NCBI GenBank assembly: GCA_030154025.1
Contig: JASKKT010000020.1
Span: forward strand, 1-38,900
Direction: 5' to 3'
DNA: 38,900 nucleotides
Source: Methanolobus sp.
Lineage (GTDB): Archaea; Halobacteriota; Methanosarcinia; Methanosarcinales; Methanosarcinaceae
In this document: one piece after another, positions 10,114 through 18,319 of the stretch
Position numbering within the stretch: position 1 is the stretch's first letter
How the letters are laid out: every line of letters starts with the position of its first letter
Position numbers and translations under genes: made by a program
Notes under the pieces: generated by a model
Database searches by the model: none
What the model saw: only the letters and a program-made list of their open reading frames with translations
What the model was told of the DNA's origin: nothing

Positions 10114-10731
10114 TTAACCTTTGATCCTTTTCAGCCTGAAGGTGTTTTCCCTTTCCATCTCTTCGAGACGGAGCCTTATGAAGTTCATTGCTTCCTGAAG
10201 TTCGGGGATCACCTTGAACTCGAGAGCATTGACACGCCTTTTGGTCTTCTCGATATCCTCGAGAAGCTTCTTCATGGTGGTCTCGATCTCTGCTGCAAGG
10301 ATGATCTTCTCAACAAGGATCTCGTATGAATCTGCTGCCTCATCCGTGTAGGAACTGGTACCGACGATACCGTATCCACGCTCATCGAGCGCTTTGTGGA
10401 CACTGGATGACTCGATCTTGGGAACGACGACACCCATTATATTGCGGCTTTCCAGCTCGATCTCCGGCTTGCCCTGAAGGGCAAAAGAGGTGGATTTGAC
10501 GGTGATCACACCGTCAACAGCTTCTGCAATGGCTATCCTGCGGGAAGCGACTTCATAGGCGGCGTCCAGCTCGGTCCTGACATCCTTGGCCTTGCCGAGT
10601 ATCTCGAAGAACTCAAGGATAAGTCCGTCCCTCTTCATCTTGAGCAGCTTGTGGCCGCTCTGGGAGAGCTTGATCTTCTTCTTGAGCTCGATAAGTTCGG
10701 ACCGGGTTGGTTTTACATCTTTTACGCCCAT
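10114..10731 (-). CDS. ahaD: A1AO ATP synthase subunit D (central stalk)
   Basis: Subunit D forms the long coiled coil of the rotating central shaft inside the A3B3 ring. The 205-residue protein starts with KPTRSELIELKKKIKLSQSGHKLLKMKRDGLI, a strong family signature, followed by a middle domain and a C-terminal helix with TKRRVNALEFKVIPELQEA and basic RLKRIKG end. The length is normal. A clear ribosome-binding site GGTGATC lies four bases before the ATG. It is 16 bases downstream of ahaB and followed by ahaG in the same minus-strand operon. Confidence 0.96.
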   Translation of the reverse strand: MGVKDVKPTRSELIELKKKIKLSQSGHKLLKMKRDGLILEFFEILGKAKDVRTELDAAYEVASRRIAIAEAVDGVITVKSTSFALQGKPEIELESRNIMGVVVPKIESSSVHKALDERGYGIVGTSSYTDEAADSYEILVEKIILAAEIETTMKKLLEDIEKTKRRVNALEFKVIPELQEAMNFIRLRLEEMERENTFRLKRIKG

Positions 10732-10747
10732 GTAGGATCACCTGACT

Positions 10748-12127
10748 TTACTTGCTCTTGTGAGCGGGGTGGTACTTCTGGATGTACTTGTTGTCCACTC
10801 TTGTGAGCAGGGCTTCCGGAAGTTCTGCAAGGATGCTCCAGGAGACGTTCAGGGTATCCTCGATAGTCCTGTCCTCATCCCTTCCCTGGCGGACGAACCT
10901 GTCCTCAAAGAGGTCTGCGAACTCAAGGATCTTCTGGTCCCTCTCGGAAAGAGCTTCCTTACCCACGATGGCAACGAGACCCCTGAGGTCACGGCCTTCT
11001 GCGTAGGCTGCATACATCTGGTCAGAGACTGCCTTGTGGTCATCCCTGGTCTTGCCTGCACCAATGCCTGAGTTCATCAGACGGGAGAGTGAAGGCAGTA
11101 CGTTGATAGGTGGATAGATACCCTTTCTGTGCAGTTCCCTTGAGACCACGATCTGTCCTTCGGTAATGTAACCTGAGAGGTCAGGGATCGGGTGGGTGAT
11201 ATCGTCACCGGGCATGGTAAGGATTGAGAACTGTGTGACTGAACCCTTCCTTCCCTTGATGACACCTGCGCGCTCGTAAAGTGATGCAAGGTCGGTGTAC
11301 ATGTAACCCGGGTAACCACGCCTTCCAGGAACCTCTTCACGGGCTGCACCCATCTGACGGAGTGCCTCACAGTAGTTGGTGATATCCGTAAGGATGACCA
11401 GTACGTGCATGTCGTGTTCGTATGCGAGGTACTCTGCTGCGGTGAGTGCCATCCTTGGTGTGATAAGGCGCTCTACAGCAGGGTCGTCTGCGAGGTTGAG
11501 GAACACCACTGCTCTCTCAAGGGCACCGGTCTTTTCGAAGTCTTCCATGAAGTACTGTGCTTCCTCACTGGTGATACCCATTGCAGCGAACACTACCGCG
11601 AAGTCCTCGGTGGAGCCGGGAACCTTTGCCTGACGTGCGATCTGCAGTGCGATCTCGTTGTGTGGAAGACCTGATCCGGAGAAGATGGGCAGCTTCTGGC
11701 CACGTACGAGGGTGTTGGTACCGTCGATGGTTGAAATGCCTGTCTGGATGAATTCCTCAGGTGGCATCCTTGAATATGGGTTCATTGATGCACCGTTGAC
11801 GTCTACCCTGTCTTCAGGGATGATGCGTGGTCCGCCGTCCAGTGGCTCACCGGATCCGGAAAGGATACGGCCGAGCATGTCCTTGGAAACCGGGAGCTTG
11901 ATGGTCTCGCCTGTGAAGACCACACCGGATTCCTCGTTGAGTCCGCCGGTACCTTCGAATACCTGGACTGCTACCATGTCAGCGGAGGTATCAAGGACCT
12001 GTCCTCTTTTGGTGGTCCCGTCCGGAAGGTTGATAGTAACCAGTTCATTGTAACCTACAGGTTCGGTCTTCTCAAGGAAGACCAGTGGTCCTGAGATCTC
12101 TGTGATTGTCTTATATTCCTTGGTCAT
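10748..12127 (-). CDS. ahaB: A1AO ATP synthase subunit B (non-catalytic)
   Basis: Subunit B alternates with A in the A3B3 hexamer and binds nucleotide without hydrolysing it. The 459-residue protein has the N-terminal beta-barrel ([14 protein letters not shown]), the central nucleotide-binding domain with a degenerate P-loop near [15 protein letters not shown] in place of GxxxxGKT, and the family motifs [15 protein letters not shown] and [22 protein letters not shown]. It starts two bases after the ahaA stop and is preceded by GGAGGT inside the ahaA end. The length and motifs are ordinary for archaeal V/A-type B subunits. Confidence 0.97.
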
Positions 12128-12129
12128 TT

Positions 12130-13866
12130 TTACTTACCTCCAAGCTGCGCAAATTCCTTATCCATCTTGGTCAGGACAGCGTCAAGTGCATCCTGGAAGT
12201 TCTCTTCGAACTTTACCTTCGCAAGTTCATCCTTTGACTCGAGGGACAGGATGTCTTTCATCGGGACGCCTGCTTCAAGTGCAGCTGTTGCCATCTCGCC
12301 GTACTTGGAGATTGCTTTCAGTAACTTGTACTGCTTGTCGAAGGGGCAGTATGTGTCCACAGGGTGGAAAGCGTTCTGCTGCAGGAAGTATTCCCTGAGC
12401 ATGCGGCAGATCTCGAGCACAAGCTGCTGGTCCTCTGGCAGAGCGTCGGAACCGACCAGCTGCACGATCTCCTGGAGTTCTGCTTCCTGCTGGAGAAGGT
12501 CCATTGCATTGTCCCTCAGGGTTACCCAGTCGGGTGCCACATTCTCACCGAACCAGCCGGAGAGTCCCTGTGTGTACAGGCTGTAACTTGTGAGCCAGTT
12601 AATGGACGGGAAGTGCCTTCTCTGTGCAAGCTTTGCATCCAGTGCCCAGAAAACCTTCACGATACGGAGGGTGTTCTGTGTGACCGGTTCGGAGAAGTCA
12701 CCGCCCGGTGGTGATACTGCACCGATTACTGTGATAGAGCCTTCCTGACCTTCGAGGGTGCGTACATATCCTGCTCTCTCATAGAACTCGGAGAGTCTTG
12801 CTGAGAGGTATGCAGGGTAACCTTCCTCACCTGGCATCTCTTCAAGCCTTGATGAGATCTCTCTCATTGCCTCTGCCCACCTTGAAGTGGAGTCTGCCAT
12901 GAGTGATACGTCGTATCCCATGTCACGGTAGTATTCCGCAATGGTGATACCTGTATAAACTGAAGCCTCACGGGCTGCCACAGGCATGTTTGAGGTGTTG
13001 GCGATAAGCACGGTACGCTCCATGAGCGGGCGTCCTGTCTTTGGGTCCTGGAGCTCGGGGAACTCGTTAAGCACATCAGCCATCTCGTTTCCACGCTCGC
13101 CGCATCCGATGTAGACCACAATGTCAGTGTCACTCCACTTTGCAAGCTGCTGCTGGGTAACTGTCTTACCGGAACCGAAGGGACCCGGGATAGCTGCAGT
13201 ACCGCCCTTTGCAACCGGGAACAGACCGTCAAGGATCCTCTGACCGGTAATAAGGGGCTTGTTCGGCATGAGCTTCTTGCCTACAGGACGTGGTTTCCTG
13301 ACAGGCCACTTCTGCATCATTGACAGTTGTGTGCCGTTCTCAAGAACACATATAATTTCATCGACCTTGAACTTGCCCGCCTTGATCTCGGAGATAGTTC
13401 CCGAAATGGTTGGTGGGACCATGATCTTGTGCTCAATGTTCTCGGTTTCCTGCACAAGACCAATTACGTCTCCGCCCTTTACGGAGTCACCCTTCTTTGC
13501 AGTTGGCCTGAACTCCCATACTTTCTCGCGGCTGAGTCCGTTTGCAGTGACTCCTCTCTGGATGAAGTCGCCCATCTTTTCCTGCAGGACCATCAAAGGT
13601 CTCTGGATACCGTCATAAATGCTTTCCAGCAATCCTGGACCAAGTTCTACTGAGAGGGACATTCCAGTGTTCACTACGGGTTCTCCCGGTTTGATACCGG
13701 CTGTGTCCTCGTATACCTGGACAGTGGCTTTGTCACCTTCTATCCTGATCACTTCACCCATTAATCCTTCGTGACCAACCTGGACCACGTCGTACATTTT
13801 AGGCTTGATGCCCCTGATAGTGACGACAGGACCTGCCACGCGATAAATTTCACCTTTCATTTCCAC
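12130..13866 (-). CDS. ahaA: A1AO ATP synthase subunit A (catalytic)
   Basis: Subunit A carries the catalytic ATP site of the methanogen ATP synthase. The 578-residue chain has the N-terminal barrel ([13 protein letters not shown]), the non-homologous bulge domain of about residues 110-190 that distinguishes A from F1-beta, and the P-loop GPFGSGKT at 228-235 followed by CGERGNEM and [17 protein letters not shown]. The GTG start at 13866 has GGTG seven bases upstream and gives MEMKGEIY, as in Methanosarcina relatives. An ATG at 13860 overlapping the ahaF stop (ATGA) is the alternative. It overlaps ahaF by 10 bases. Confidence 0.97.
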
Positions 13867-14156
13867 AGATCAACACCTACCGATTGTTTTATTTTTTCCC
13901 TTAGGTTCGAACTTTGCGCACTACCTCCAAGAGTCACAATTGTTGGCTCAACAGAGTCATTGATAGTGTTTCTTAGCATCTCCGGTAGTTTATTGAGATC
14001 ATCACCGTGCATTACAAGAATGCCTACTTCCTCATCCTCAATTATCCTGTGCACGGTAGCTTCAAGTTCGCCATCATTAACTTCATATATTTTTCTGACA
14101 CCTGCGAGCCTGAACCCTGTCACGAACTCGCTGCGTCCAACCACTGCTAATTCCAT
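13857..14156 (-). CDS. ahaF: A1AO ATP synthase subunit F (central stalk)
   Basis: Subunit F binds subunit D at the base of the central stalk and participates in coupling. The 99-residue protein has the small CheY-like fold pattern of the family: [36 protein letters not shown], and PTIVTLGG near the C-terminus. The ATG is preceded by GGTGATC and overlaps the ahaC stop by one base. Its 3' end overlaps the ahaA start region, consistent with coupled translation of the soluble A1 subunits. Confidence 0.94.
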
Positions 14157-15220
14157 CAGATCACCAACTGTTCCCTGATAATTTCATCACTGAGGTTGGC
14201 CTCTTTGCCACGTACTATTATCCGCAGGTTGTTTACCTCATTCTGCTTAGTCAGAATGTAGTCCATAATTGGTACTATTGAGAGTGGATAAACGTGTGAG
14301 AAGCTTGATGCAGATTTAAGCCTGTATTTCTTGAGCCTCGTCTCGACATGGATCAGTGATTGCATATCCGAGCTTACGATATCTGATATTTCCTCCCAGT
14401 AAGAGTATTTATTGAGCTCCTCAATAAACTCTCCAAAGGAAAGTGACATCATTCTCTGTATATCCTTGAATTTGATCTCAAGACCACCTTCTATCATCAG
14501 TTTGATCATATCGGGGTCCGTGATTCCTGCCTTCTTCAAACGGAAAAGAATCATAAGGTTCTTGATATCAATACCCGCCCTGATGAACTTGGCAAAAAGC
14601 TTGCGGTCTTTTGATTTGGAGCTGCCTGCAAGGGCAAAGAGTCCGGCGTAATACAGCTTATCAAGCAGGTTCTCTATATCCGATAGATTGGTGCCATCGT
14701 ATTTTTCAAGTATCGGATAATACTCGGTACCTTCAAATTCAGATACAACCTCCTCATAGCTCTCCTTTGTGGCCAGGCCGGAAAGTAATGTGTAGGTCAA
14801 GCTGCCTCCTGCAACAAGAGCTTCCTGGATCTCTTTTGTAGATGCCTTACAGTACTTGCCTCTCAGGATAGTCTTGATGTTCCATATGTCATATTCCTTG
14901 AGGTATTCCGCAATCAGGAAATTGACTTCTCCTTCAGAGATATTCAGGAGTTTTCTGAAGGTAACAGACAGGTTCCTGTTCAGAGAATGCTCAATCAGGT
15001 CAACGCCCTCAAATCGCAACGCCAGCTCATCAACATCTTCCGTATATCCCGACTCGCCAATGAACCTGGCTATCTCATCAATGCTCATATTCATGAGTCT
15101 GGGGTAAGTCTCTTTTGGCAAGAGCTTACTTTTCATTGCACGAACGCGTGATACTGTATATGCGTATTTGGCGTGACTTTTTGAGCCAGAACCACGCTTA
15201 AATTTCTGCAACAGCTGCAT
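14156..15220 (-). CDS. ahaC: A1AO ATP synthase subunit C (rotor adapter)
   Basis: Subunit C (V-type d homologue) is the funnel that sits on the c-ring and connects it to the D/F shaft. The 354-residue all-helical protein shows family sequences [18 protein letters not shown] near the start, [19 protein letters not shown] in the middle and [30 protein letters not shown] near the end, where the final helices contact the ring. A ribosome-binding site GGTGAT precedes the ATG. It lies seven bases downstream of ahaE and overlaps ahaF by one base. Confidence 0.95.
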
Positions 15221-15227
15221 TTAGAAA

Positions 15228-15779
15228 TCACCCAAATAAGATATCAGATGTTTGCTTCAACAACTGCTCACTTACACTCTTAAGGATGACATCGTAGGTA
15301 TAATCCAGTCTCACAGTCCCATCTTCATTCTCAATGACAACGCCACCGAGACAGTCGATGTTGCCAGCATATTCGAGAGAGCTCAGTTTCCTCACAATCT
15401 TCTCTGATGCTGCATTTGAGTATATCCTTTTACCGCCAGCTTCGTTCTTCTCAATGATGGACTTCAGAAGCTCTTCGTTCTTTTCAGGGGAAAATGCGGC
15501 TATGGATCTTTCAGTTCTGGTATATACATCTTCAAGCAATTCCTTACGTGCATTGAGCAGTGTGCGCTTTACTTCAAGATTTGCGCTAGATATTTCTTGC
15601 TGTCTCATTTTGCGGACATCATCCTCTGCCTTGGCAAGACGTTCGCCCACTATCTTCTTCGCGGCCTGACGGGCATCTTCTATAATAAGAGAAGCCTCTG
15701 CGTCAGCCTCACGGTTCAAACGGGCCACTTCCGCCTGTGCAGCATCCATGATATCCTTAACAACAATTTCAAGTCCCAT
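15228..15779 (-). CDS. ahaE: A1AO ATP synthase subunit E (peripheral stalk)
   Basis: Subunit E pairs with H to form the peripheral stalks that hold the A3B3 head. The protein (183 residues) has a long alanine- and charge-rich coiled coil of about residues 10-100 (QAEVARLNREADAEASLIIE and following) and a globular C-terminal head ending in LLKQTSDILFG. I chose ATG 15779 (MGLEIVVKDIM), because AGGTGA is six bases upstream. The ATG at 15785 would leave no spacing to that site. A perfect hairpin sits immediately upstream, between ahaK and ahaE. Confidence 0.93.
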   Translation of the reverse strand: MGLEIVVKDIMDAAQAEVARLNREADAEASLIIEDARQAAKKIVGERLAKAEDDVRKMRQQEISSANLEVKRTLLNARKELLEDVYTRTERSIAAFSPEKNEELLKSIIEKNEAGGKRIYSNAASEKIVRKLSSLEYAGNIDCLGGVVIENEDGTVRLDYTYDVILKSVSEQLLKQTSDILFG

Positions 15780-15800
15780 GCTCATTCACCTACAAAATGA

Positions 15801-15825
15801 TTTAAGAGCAAAAAGTGCTCTTAAA
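15801..15825. promoter_or_regulatory. Perfect 10-bp stem-loop between ahaK and ahaE
   Basis: The arms TTTAAGAGCA (15801-15810) and TGCTCTTAAA (15816-15825) pair perfectly around a five-base loop. In the minus-strand mRNA the loop is CUUUU and more U residues flank it. It lies six bases after the ahaK stop and ahead of the ahaE ribosome-binding site. An RNA hairpin here could protect the 3' end of an ahaH-I-K segment, direct processing, or attenuate transcription, and so help make more proteolipid than E-D subunits. The structure is seen; the function is inferred. Confidence 0.6.
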
Positions 15826-15830
15826 AAGAC

Positions 15831-16064
15831 TTATAGCATCAATATTGCGACTACCAGACCGAAAATGACGATCGTTTCGGGAATAACAGTAAGAATCAGA
15901 CCCTTACCGAAAAGGCCTTCGTTCTCAGCCATTGCACCTATTGCCGCAGCACCGATATCCCTCTCTGCATATGCTGATGCAAGACCTGTAAGTCCTACTG
16001 CGAGTGCTGCTCCGATTGCTTTCAATCCTGCTGGATCTGCCATTGTTACTGCTTCTGTTACCAT
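15831..16064 (-). CDS. ahaK: A1AO ATP synthase subunit K (proteolipid c, rotor ring)
   Basis: Subunit K forms the ion-carrying rotor ring. The 77-residue product has two membrane helices: helix 1 about residues 12-33 (GLKAIGAALAVGLTGLASAY), a polar loop AERD at 33-36, and helix 2 about 54-76 with the ion-binding carboxylate E63 in VIPETIVIFG. This is the two-helix, one-site form seen in Methanosarcina rather than the four-helix one-site forms of some archaea. ATG 16064 is chosen because GGAGG lies nine bases upstream; ATG 16043 is possible. The gene starts one base after the ahaI stop. Whether Na+ or H+ is carried cannot be decided from this reading. Confidence 0.94.
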   Translation of the reverse strand: MVTEAVTMADPAGLKAIGAALAVGLTGLASAYAERDIGAAAIGAMAENEGLFGKGLILTVIPETIVIFGLVVAILML

Positions 16065-16065
16065 T

Positions 16066-18000
16066 TTAGTTTTCCTCCGTGTATTTTCTAATATATCCAA
16101 ATGGATCGTACTTGCGCCCCCCACCTTCGTAGAATTTACCGAAGAACTCTACGTACTGTAACCTGAGCGCATGCAATCCGGGGGCTATAATGCTCAGGGC
16201 AGTGTTTAAGGCGTGTCCGAAAATGAACACTACTATCGCAAATAGGGTCATCGCACCAATCGGCGATCCCGGCGGCCATATCATGCCAAAGGCAATGGCA
16301 TTGACAGTCGAGGCAATTGATATTGATGACAGGCCTACAGCTATTATACGGGTATAGGACAGGGAATTGCTCAGAATGGATGGCAACTCGACCGGGCCTT
16401 TTATACCTTCCCCCTTCAGGAGCATGCCTACACCGATAATAAATACCGCTGCTCCCACAATTATTGGCAGCATGCCGATGTACGCAAGCGCTGTAAGAAG
16501 GATGCCGAGCTGTACAACAAACCAGCTTCCCTTCTCGAAAATAGCTGCAGACATACCGTGCTTCCTTTTCTCATTGATAAAGCCCACCAGATATCCCATG
16601 TTTATATGGATCAAACCAACAAGGATGGTCGCAACGATGAACGTCATTATAAGATGGGTCCTGTGTAAAGGATAACCGACCACTTCACCCGCAAAGGGAG
16701 TCGCGAACAGATCTATCGTTTCAAAACCGGGAATCAAACCGGGTTGTCCATGATAGCCTGCAAGTGGGAATCCCAGGAACTCACCGTACAATATACCGAA
16801 TAAGAAAGCTGATACCTGACAATATATCAGGATGTTCATTAATGGCTTAATCGCATCCGAGGATACGACCTTCTTGATAATAAAAGCAAGTGTCGCCAAA
16901 ATAAGCGCATAACCCATATCACCAAGAATCATACCATATAAGAGAGGGAATGTAATGAATATCAAAGCTGAAGGGTCAATTTCCTTGTATGTGGGACGTC
17001 CGTATAGGTTCATGATCTCCTGAAGGGGAGACACCACCTTAGGATTATTGTACTCTATAGGCACAATCTTGATGTCAGGCTTTGTTATCTCCTGCTCTGA
17101 AACGAAAGCTCGGCCGTCTGTAGCATTTTCTATGACCTGCTCCAGCCTGCCGTAATTCTCAGTGGGGAGCCACCCGTCGATAATGAATGAACTCTCAGTG
17201 GTCGCTATCCTGAGTGGAGCCTCTGACTTCTGGACCTCTATGGAGAGTATCTCGTTGCTTGCAAGAATCAAATCGGAGTACTTGAGCTTCAGAGCGTCGA
17301 TCTCAGTATCCACTGCTTCAATCTTTGTGTTGATATCTGCTTCTTTCCGCTCGATGTCAGCAAGGAGCTTGGAGGGGACACCATCCAGGGCCGGAGCCTT
17401 GATCTCTTTAAAGGAGGCACCTGCAAGCATTTCACTTACCGGCTCTGCTTTGTCCTTTGGAACAAAGAGCACAACAGTACCGTTGTGCTGATCATAGTAA
17501 ATCTCGTAAGAAGGAGTGATCCGGGAAACAAGAGTTTCAGGGTTCTCTTTTACATGCCCTGCAAACACAACCAGATTCTCGTACCCTCTATAAAGACTCA
17601 GGTCAAGGTCAATATTGATCAAAGGGAGGAGGTCTTTCTTGGAGGAGCCCAATTCCTTAAGATCAGCTTCTAAAAGTCTCTTTTTCTCAACAAGCACATC
17701 CAATTCCTGATCCAGCGTGTCCAGACAGCTGTCAAGCCGGGAGCAAACCGCAGAGGGATTCTGCTTAGCAACCGCAACTTCCTTTACACCAAGAAGGCTT
17801 GCAATGGACCTTATCTTCACCAGTTTCCTGGAAACTTCGCTTCCACCTTCTAACGGCTTGCCGATCTTAAGATCAGAGCCATCCTCATTAAAGTCTTCTA
17901 TATGGAACAGATTAGCTTTATGCAGAGCATCGACCGTTTCTTCAAGGATGTTCTTATGGCCAACTATAACGGCACGACTCATCTGTTTTGGCTTAAGCAT
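16066..18000 (-). CDS. ahaI: A1AO ATP synthase subunit I (membrane stator, a-subunit)
   Basis: Subunit I provides the ion half-channels and membrane stator. About 340 N-terminal residues are soluble with coiled-coil segments, and about eight membrane helices follow from PSALIFITFPLLYGMILGDMGY onward. The conserved Arg of the channel is expected in the late helix region SLSYTRIIAVGLSSISIAS. I chose ATG 18000 (644 residues), which overlaps the ahaH end by eight bases and has GAGGG upstream. A TTG at 18015 and an ATG at 17982 are alternatives. It directly follows ahaH in the operon. Confidence 0.94.
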   Translation of the reverse strand: MLKPKQMSRAVIVGHKNILEETVDALHKANLFHIEDFNEDGSDLKIGKPLEGGSEVSRKLVKIRSIASLLGVKEVAVAKQNPSAVCSRLDSCLDTLDQELDVLVEKKRLLEADLKELGSSKKDLLPLINIDLDLSLYRGYENLVVFAGHVKENPETLVSRITPSYEIYYDQHNGTVVLFVPKDKAEPVSEMLAGASFKEIKAPALDGVPSKLLADIERKEADINTKIEAVDTEIDALKLKYSDLILASNEILSIEVQKSEAPLRIATTESSFIIDGWLPTENYGRLEQVIENATDGRAFVSEQEITKPDIKIVPIEYNNPKVVSPLQEIMNLYGRPTYKEIDPSALIFITFPLLYGMILGDMGYALILATLAFIIKKVVSSDAIKPLMNILIYCQVSAFLFGILYGEFLGFPLAGYHGQPGLIPGFETIDLFATPFAGEVVGYPLHRTHLIMTFIVATILVGLIHINMGYLVGFINEKRKHGMSAAIFEKGSWFVVQLGILLTALAYIGMLPIIVGAAVFIIGVGMLLKGEGIKGPVELPSILSNSLSYTRIIAVGLSSISIASTVNAIAFGMIWPPGSPIGAMTLFAIVVFIFGHALNTALSIIAPGLHALRLQYVEFFGKFYEGGGRKYDPFGYIRKYTEEN

Positions 18001-18319
18001 GTACTGCCCTCTCAAACTCAGTCAGTAACATATTAACCGCATTATCCACATTGGAAGATGCCTTAACTTTAGTTGCCTCTGCCTCAGCCAGACCAGCCTT
18101 AATGATTTCCTGCTTTTCGGAGCTTATTGTCTCTTCAGCTGACTTTATCGCATTCTGTGCAGATCGATGGGCATCGGCCTCCGCCTGCTTCATGATCTCC
18201 CTGGCTTCTGCACGTGCACTGTTGATACGGTCCTGTTTACTCTTTGCACCGTTTTCAACCATTTTCCGTGCATTGCCTTCTGCTTCTTTTATTTCAGACA
18301 AGATTTTCTCTTTGGCCAT
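17993..18319 (-). CDS. ahaH: A1AO ATP synthase subunit H (peripheral stalk coiled coil)
   Basis: Subunit H is the helical partner of E in the peripheral stalk. The 108-residue protein is almost entirely Ala/Glu/Lys/Arg-rich coiled coil (EILSEIKEAEGNARKMVENG onward) with no Pro or Trp, as expected. It is the first gene of the operon, about 40 bases after a predicted transcription start. GAGGAT precedes the ATG as a weak ribosome-binding site. Confidence 0.9.
   Translation of the reverse strand: MAKEKILSEIKEAEGNARKMVENGAKSKQDRINSARAEAREIMKQAEADAHRSAQNAIKSAEETISSEKQEIIKAGLAEAEATKVKASSNVDNAVNMLLTEFERAVHA

Follow-up and report, generated by a model that had tools for sequence, protein, structure and literature searches.

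Between the rotor-ring gene ahaK and ahaE, the aha operon of the window (the whole 38.9-kb stretch of DNA that was analysed) encodes an intercistronic RNA hairpin on the minus strand, at 15801-15825, recognised by its inverted repeat, its fold and its conservation. Pairing is kept at this place in 14 genera and the junction is the longest of the operon, which together support an RNA element dividing ahaH-I-K from ahaE-C-F-A-B-D-G, as an earlier note on this DNA had suggested. As its stem is strongly conserved and its loop varies freely, the hairpin probably represents a genuine signal by which the aha message is divided into two parts. The best explanation, plausible and still tentative, is an intercistronic mRNA element that would define or protect the 3' end of the ahaHIK message and uncouple it from ahaECFABDG.

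The hairpin and its place in the operon

The aha genes lie on the minus strand in the order ahaH, I, K and then, across the K-E junction, E, C, F, A, B, D. The gene names are those of the earlier note, and that of ahaK also follows from the order ahaHIKECFABD given in the accessible part of PMC2838876. The upstream part (16066-18319) comprises ahaH (17993-18319) and ahaI (about 17997 to 16066), the latter separated by 1 nt from ahaK (15831-16064), which encodes the rotor-ring proteolipid of 77 aa. The downstream part begins with ahaE (15228-15779) and continues with ahaC, F, A, B and D (10114-15220), whose junctions range between -10 and +16 nt; ahaG may be represented by a short frame 3' of ahaD. 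The conserved ATGGGA start of ahaE is at 15779, and the open reading frame as listed starts at 15785, right behind the Shine-Dalgarno (SD)-like motif.

The inverted repeat consists of 10-nt arms (15801-15810 and 15816-15825), 100% complementary and separated by a 5-nt spacer, in agreement with the perfect 10-bp stem and five-base loop that had been noted directly behind ahaK. As the operon is on the minus strand, the RNA reads UUUAAGAGCA-CUUUU-UGCUCUUAAA from 15825 to 15801, with the 5' arm at 15816-15825, the loop at 15811-15815 and the 3' arm at 15801-15810. The ahaK stop (15831) stands 5 nt before the hairpin and the conserved ahaE start (15779) 21 nt after it. On its 3' side follow UCAUUUUGU, with a run of at least four U (UCAUUUUG), then the SD-like AGGUG and then the ahaE start; this stretch (15787-15800) is made up of a U-rich linker (15792-15800) and the AGGUG of ahaE (15787-15791), and linker length and SD position were compared over 101 genomes. 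Folded by itself, the hairpin reaches -10.2 kcal/mol, a value equalled by 0/200 shuffles; its 61-nt context reaches -16.8 kcal/mol, equalled by 2/200. It is the sole perfect stem of at least 10 bp with a loop of 3-8 nt in the window, and such stems were present in 3/20 dinucleotide-shuffled windows (four stems in total), so that from the window alone the hairpin is only a mild surprise against chance and is not decisive. A chance origin is ruled out by its conservation across the family. A search against Rfam release 15 gave 0 matches in the window at a family's gathering score.

When 13 operons from 8 genera were compared, the K-E junction was the longest in all of them (44-245 nt), the remaining junctions overlapping or reaching at most 54 nt. 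A scan for hairpins with 8 or more Watson-Crick pairs and a loop of no more than 9 nt found one at this junction in 12 of the 13 operons and none at the seven other junctions; in the thirteenth operon (genus g9), the stem has 13 bp and a 15-nt loop, beyond the loop limit of the scan. The same scan lists at least one such hairpin within genes in 13/13 operons, which means that stems of this size are, as such, not rare. Of 20 named loci, each covering up to 6.5 kb, 12 have a perfect stem of 9 bp or more at K-E, and the 20 together have two such stems at other places.

Conservation across the family and position in the gap

By its closest named ahaE relatives, the genome of the window groups with Methanolobus, and its family (f1) is accordingly taken as Methanosarcinaceae. 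This family showed an ahaE match in 102/111 genomes and provided 101 ahaK-ahaE gaps from 14 genera, G087 having been left out, as its ahaE was matched only in part. At least 8 Watson-Crick pairs can form in 96/101 of these gaps and at least 6 in 101/101, the corresponding figures for loci of other families being 0/48 and 4/48. Those 48 loci comprise 31 from f2-f5, four other families within the order (read out of 67 genomes with an ahaK match), and 17 from f6 and f7 (13 genomes searched of 44), two pairs among the 17 representing one and the same gap each. The outside gaps are 2-43 nt long; such a stem could fit into 25 of the 48 (23-43 nt), the remaining 23 being below 18 nt and too short for it. 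This comparison of loci suggests an origin of the element within the Methanosarcinaceae. A covariance model built from such hairpins (R1) was run with 150 candidates scored per genome and found nothing at E values up to 1 in 5/5 genomes of other families. Within the family it matched the K-E gap in 18/20 genomes, both misses belonging to g8, a recall that is expected given how the model was built. Off-site matches were returned in six genomes at E 0.027-0.93 (G006, G042, G044, G074, G083, G027), and another in G027, at E 0.0012, is a hairpin between convergent genes.

Arms like TTTAAGAGC and GCTCTTAAA, with at most two mismatches per arm, were found in 94/101 gaps and were perfect on both sides in 60. 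Two G-C pairs are kept in all 94, and the loops of these hairpins vary from 3 to 17 nt, with 74 distinct sequences. The pattern TTAAGAGCN{2,10}GCTCTTAA occurs as a single copy in each of 61 of the 111 genomes (some of which are incomplete), always in the K-E gap, and its backward-read control gave 0 matches; a repeat family or mobile element is excluded by this single location in 61/61 pattern-bearing genomes. The seven gaps devoid of the common arms are two of g6, with longer stems on similar arms, and two of g8 and three of g12, in which the stem has been replaced, as in the g8 example GGAGGCGGAAUUUUUUUCCGCCUUU, which stands at the same position. The pairing is thus kept across the 14 genera, by way of replaced stems in g8 and g12, and the earlier expectation of conservation held.

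The compensating changes that the same note had proposed as a check are scarce in the formal analysis, a MAFFT alignment of 44 hand-picked representatives of the 101 gaps, in which just 2 of 10 pairs changed on both sides, a result matched by 119/500 shuffles. In that alignment, 93.9% of the cells are paired (0/500 shuffles; 28-60% when the pairing is slid) and the covariation score is 0.123 (reached by 1/500 shuffles). The g8 and g12 rows are offset by 1-2 columns, so their replaced stems are not counted. The formal covariation of the stem is, consequently, modest. The non-Watson-Crick cells of the sense strand comprise 24 G-U, 6 A-C and 6 others, and this excess of G-U over A-C points to the sense RNA; tallied by position and genus, the same comparison is a weak count of 11 to 4. 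Taken as a whole, the evidence that selection has acted on the RNA rather than on the DNA is good but not complete.

Regarding its position, the 5' arm lies 0-11 nt past the ahaK stop in 87/94 gaps, including most of those of about 200 nt, which ties the hairpin to the 3' end of ahaK. The end of the stem was also placed 4-14 nt ahead of the SD in 99/101 gaps by an automatic search whose choice of hairpin was poor in G092 and G109 (and, in another run, in G005, G008, G038, G078, G092 and others). A fixed hairpin-to-SD distance as the main anchor was dropped, since the common-arm hairpin of the Methanosarcina-like genomes is mostly beside the K stop. In these genomes (g4, g5, g13), the gap extends over 175-267 nt and contains 3-8 non-overlapping hairpins in 33/33 cases; 100 mononucleotide shuffles per gap average 0.6-1.1, the best shuffles of some gaps equalling the observed number. 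The GAGC/GCUC theme of the arms is repeated in further hairpins of the long gaps, and in 6 of the 8 Methanosarcina-like genomes searched TTAGAGC arms form another hairpin beside the SD, the only off-site copy of this pattern being one in G080.

Readings of the element

In the preferred explanation, the hairpin behind the ahaK stop would provide the ahaHIK part with a defined, exonuclease-resistant 3' end, generated either by endonuclease cleavage within the U-rich single-stranded region that follows it, or by 3'-to-5' trimming of longer messages. The ahaECFABDG message would thereby become separate, with its own SD start, its own abundance and its own stability, and in the Methanosarcina-like genomes the single hairpin would have become a tandem array. 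That the message is cut or trimmed, that the hairpin protects its 3' end and that subunit ratios are affected at all is inferred; the K-proximal placement, together with the arrays, speaks for a role in defining or protecting the 3' end of the ahaHIK message. Each enzyme has a ring of about ten or more K subunits, one C, D or F and one ahaI. Because ahaI belongs to the same upstream part as ahaK, a K-E boundary alone could not yield more K than I. Three extra ahaK copies situated away from the operon (L166, L167 and L168, from G076, G078 and G088 of g13; about 11.6 kb off the operon copy in G076 and G078) show no 8-pair stem and no ahaE start in the stretch read behind each, which counts against this explanation. 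Expression data from M. acetivorans, as reported in the accessible part of PMC2838876, point in two directions: an earlier microarray recorded a two-fold rise on acetate for ahaECFABD and for no other aha gene, a change that starts at ahaE and places the break exactly at K-E, in favour of the explanation, and RT-PCR of ahaI, ahaC and ahaB found aha transcripts in general two-fold higher on acetate, which, with ahaI not singled out, misfits a clean break at K-E and conflicts with the microarray. Additionally, the ATP synthase operon of Methanococcus maripaludis is described in the available part of PMC10450193 as coordinately transcribed and free of internal terminators, so that an archaeal enzyme is possible without such a boundary.

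The main rival, unlikely in our estimate, is a translational insulator, by which ribosomes leaving a heavily translated ahaK would be kept from running on or re-initiating at ahaE, leaving ahaE to be translated from its own SD only. The length of the K-E junction in 13/13 operons, the closeness of the stem end to the SD in the automatic search and the TTAGAGC hairpins beside the SD speak for it, but the common-arm hairpin tracks the K stop and not the SD in most long gaps, neither arrays nor fixed arm sequences would be needed, and the loci of other families, with gaps of 2-43 nt, manage without it. The combination of near-fixed arms and free loops exceeds the needs of a plain barrier, a point that weighs against the preferred explanation too. 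Also unlikely is a partial transcription termination (attenuation) after ahaK that would lower the ahaECFABDG transcript relative to ahaHIK. A bacterial-type consensus scan does list the window hairpin (3 GC pairs of 10) and its U-rich stretch as terminator-like, and internal termination sites were described, in a source available in part, within 38% of M. maripaludis operons; the scan, however, lists 15 such sites over 9 kb, compared with 7.3 for shuffled sequence. Archaeal terminators are characterised by U-tracts, usually of 4-7 U, and do not strictly require a hairpin (PMC8716108, in its accessible part). UUUU within 15 nt past the SD-proximal hairpin occurs in the window, in 20/25 gaps of its genus and in 8/8 of g10, so that termination could still take place there, and is found in 37/101 gaps of the family and 0/28 of g13; the U-tract is not conserved over the family. 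Since UUUU follows just 37/101 hairpins, attenuation, which the earlier note had listed among its mechanisms, looks less likely than processing or 3'-end protection. Terminators inserted at atpK-atpE and atpF-atpA of M. maripaludis reduced growth (PMC10450193, partial text), which also speaks against it.

The invariance that a barrier leaves aside would suit a docking site, in which the conserved arms are recognised by a specific RNA-binding protein or small RNA and the A1 part is regulated by the substrate (acetate versus methanol, in Methanosarcina). To the two G-C pairs kept in 94/94 hairpins over variable loops can be added the recurrent GAGC/GCUC theme and the acetate-dependent microarray break at K-E (PMC2838876, in part). 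Nevertheless, the g8 and g12 stems are far from the common arms and keep the position, and the microarray result is second-hand, the RT-PCR not clearly agreeing with it (same partial source), and we regard this reading as improbable. A broader proposal, to which we give little credence, though more than to a docking site as such, is a family-specific, one-per-genome mRNA element with an arm sequence that a dedicated RNA-binding protein or a small RNA would recognise, and through which HIK, as the membrane part, and ECFABDG, as the catalytic part, would be dosed separately according to the growth substrate, the Methanosarcina array being a multiplied binding site. Finally, the inverted repeat, highly conserved and single-copy in 61 genomes, could be imagined as a DNA operator, a palindrome bound by a transcription factor. 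Such an operator would show constant half-site spacing and conserved half-sites; the spacing ranges instead from 3 to 17 nt, the replaced stems of g8 and g12 retain complementarity and the sense-strand changes are biased towards G-U, all of which makes this reading highly improbable.

Related systems and variants of the locus

A literature search, with most subscription papers outside its reach, found no description of the aha K-E hairpin, and the term 'ATP synthase' is absent from PMC5378194 and PMC10667835. The closest parallels are the stem-loops of selective RNA processing (SRPS) in C. cellulolyticum, which, according to the accessible part of PMC4423207, resemble the aha hairpin in marking a gene's 3' end inside an operon that encodes a complex of unequal subunit numbers. 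A stable stem-loop at the 3' end of the upstream gene in the operon of a heteromultimeric complex, by which SRPS is recognised, is what the aha operon has; in the place of the endonucleolytic processing site that SRPS has beside its stem-loop, the aha gaps show a U-rich linker. The SRPS case, in turn, concerns a bacterium in which processing sites and abundance were measured (PMC4423207, in part), whereas the aha hairpin is known from sequence alone and differs from SRPS in having near-invariant arms over a family. The chloroplast atpH gene is, like ahaK, the rotor-ring (c-ring) gene of an ATP-synthase operon, and its mRNA ends are related to a PPR10 site and, near one 3' end, to an atpH-atpF stem-loop; it belongs to a plastid F-type enzyme, has its 5' end at the site of an RNA-binding protein and is likened here by its description in the available part of PMC3817242. 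The internal transcription terminators (ioTTS) of M. maripaludis operons resemble the aha hairpin as archaeal intra-operon elements and set unequal transcript levels, but they act by termination (PMC10450193, partial text). If the best explanation holds, the aha hairpin would work like the SRPS and chloroplast atpH stem-loops; membership in SRPS cannot be claimed from sequence and would rest on mapped RNA ends.

How a single operon yields about ten ring subunits per enzyme is a long-standing question, to which bacterial translation rates have supplied most of the answer. Chloroplast mRNA processing has touched on it as well (PMC3817242, in part). The archaeal case would add to it an element that is precisely placed, shared throughout a family and open to testing. 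It is a hairpin of 25 nt at a single junction, and nature offers it for comparison as one copy, as an array, with its stem replaced or missing altogether. The Methanosarcinaceae include genetically tractable methanogens.

Some loci present further variants of the junction. The K-E gap of L090 (G005, g4) begins with three near-identical tandem copies starting ATCGATTTTAAGAGCGG, as if the hairpin itself had been duplicating. L087 (G072, g12, Methanosalsum-like) carries at 773-842 a partial tandem copy of the ahaK end, reading NTTSRSSLSIVIFGLVAALIISS, which lies 3' of the intact ahaK stop, the hairpin being displaced from that stop. Outside the family, 4 of the 7 f3 loci read (L141, L142, L143 and L154, but not L144-L146) have a small hairpin, CCCG-4 nt-CGGG, that directly abuts the ahaE SD.
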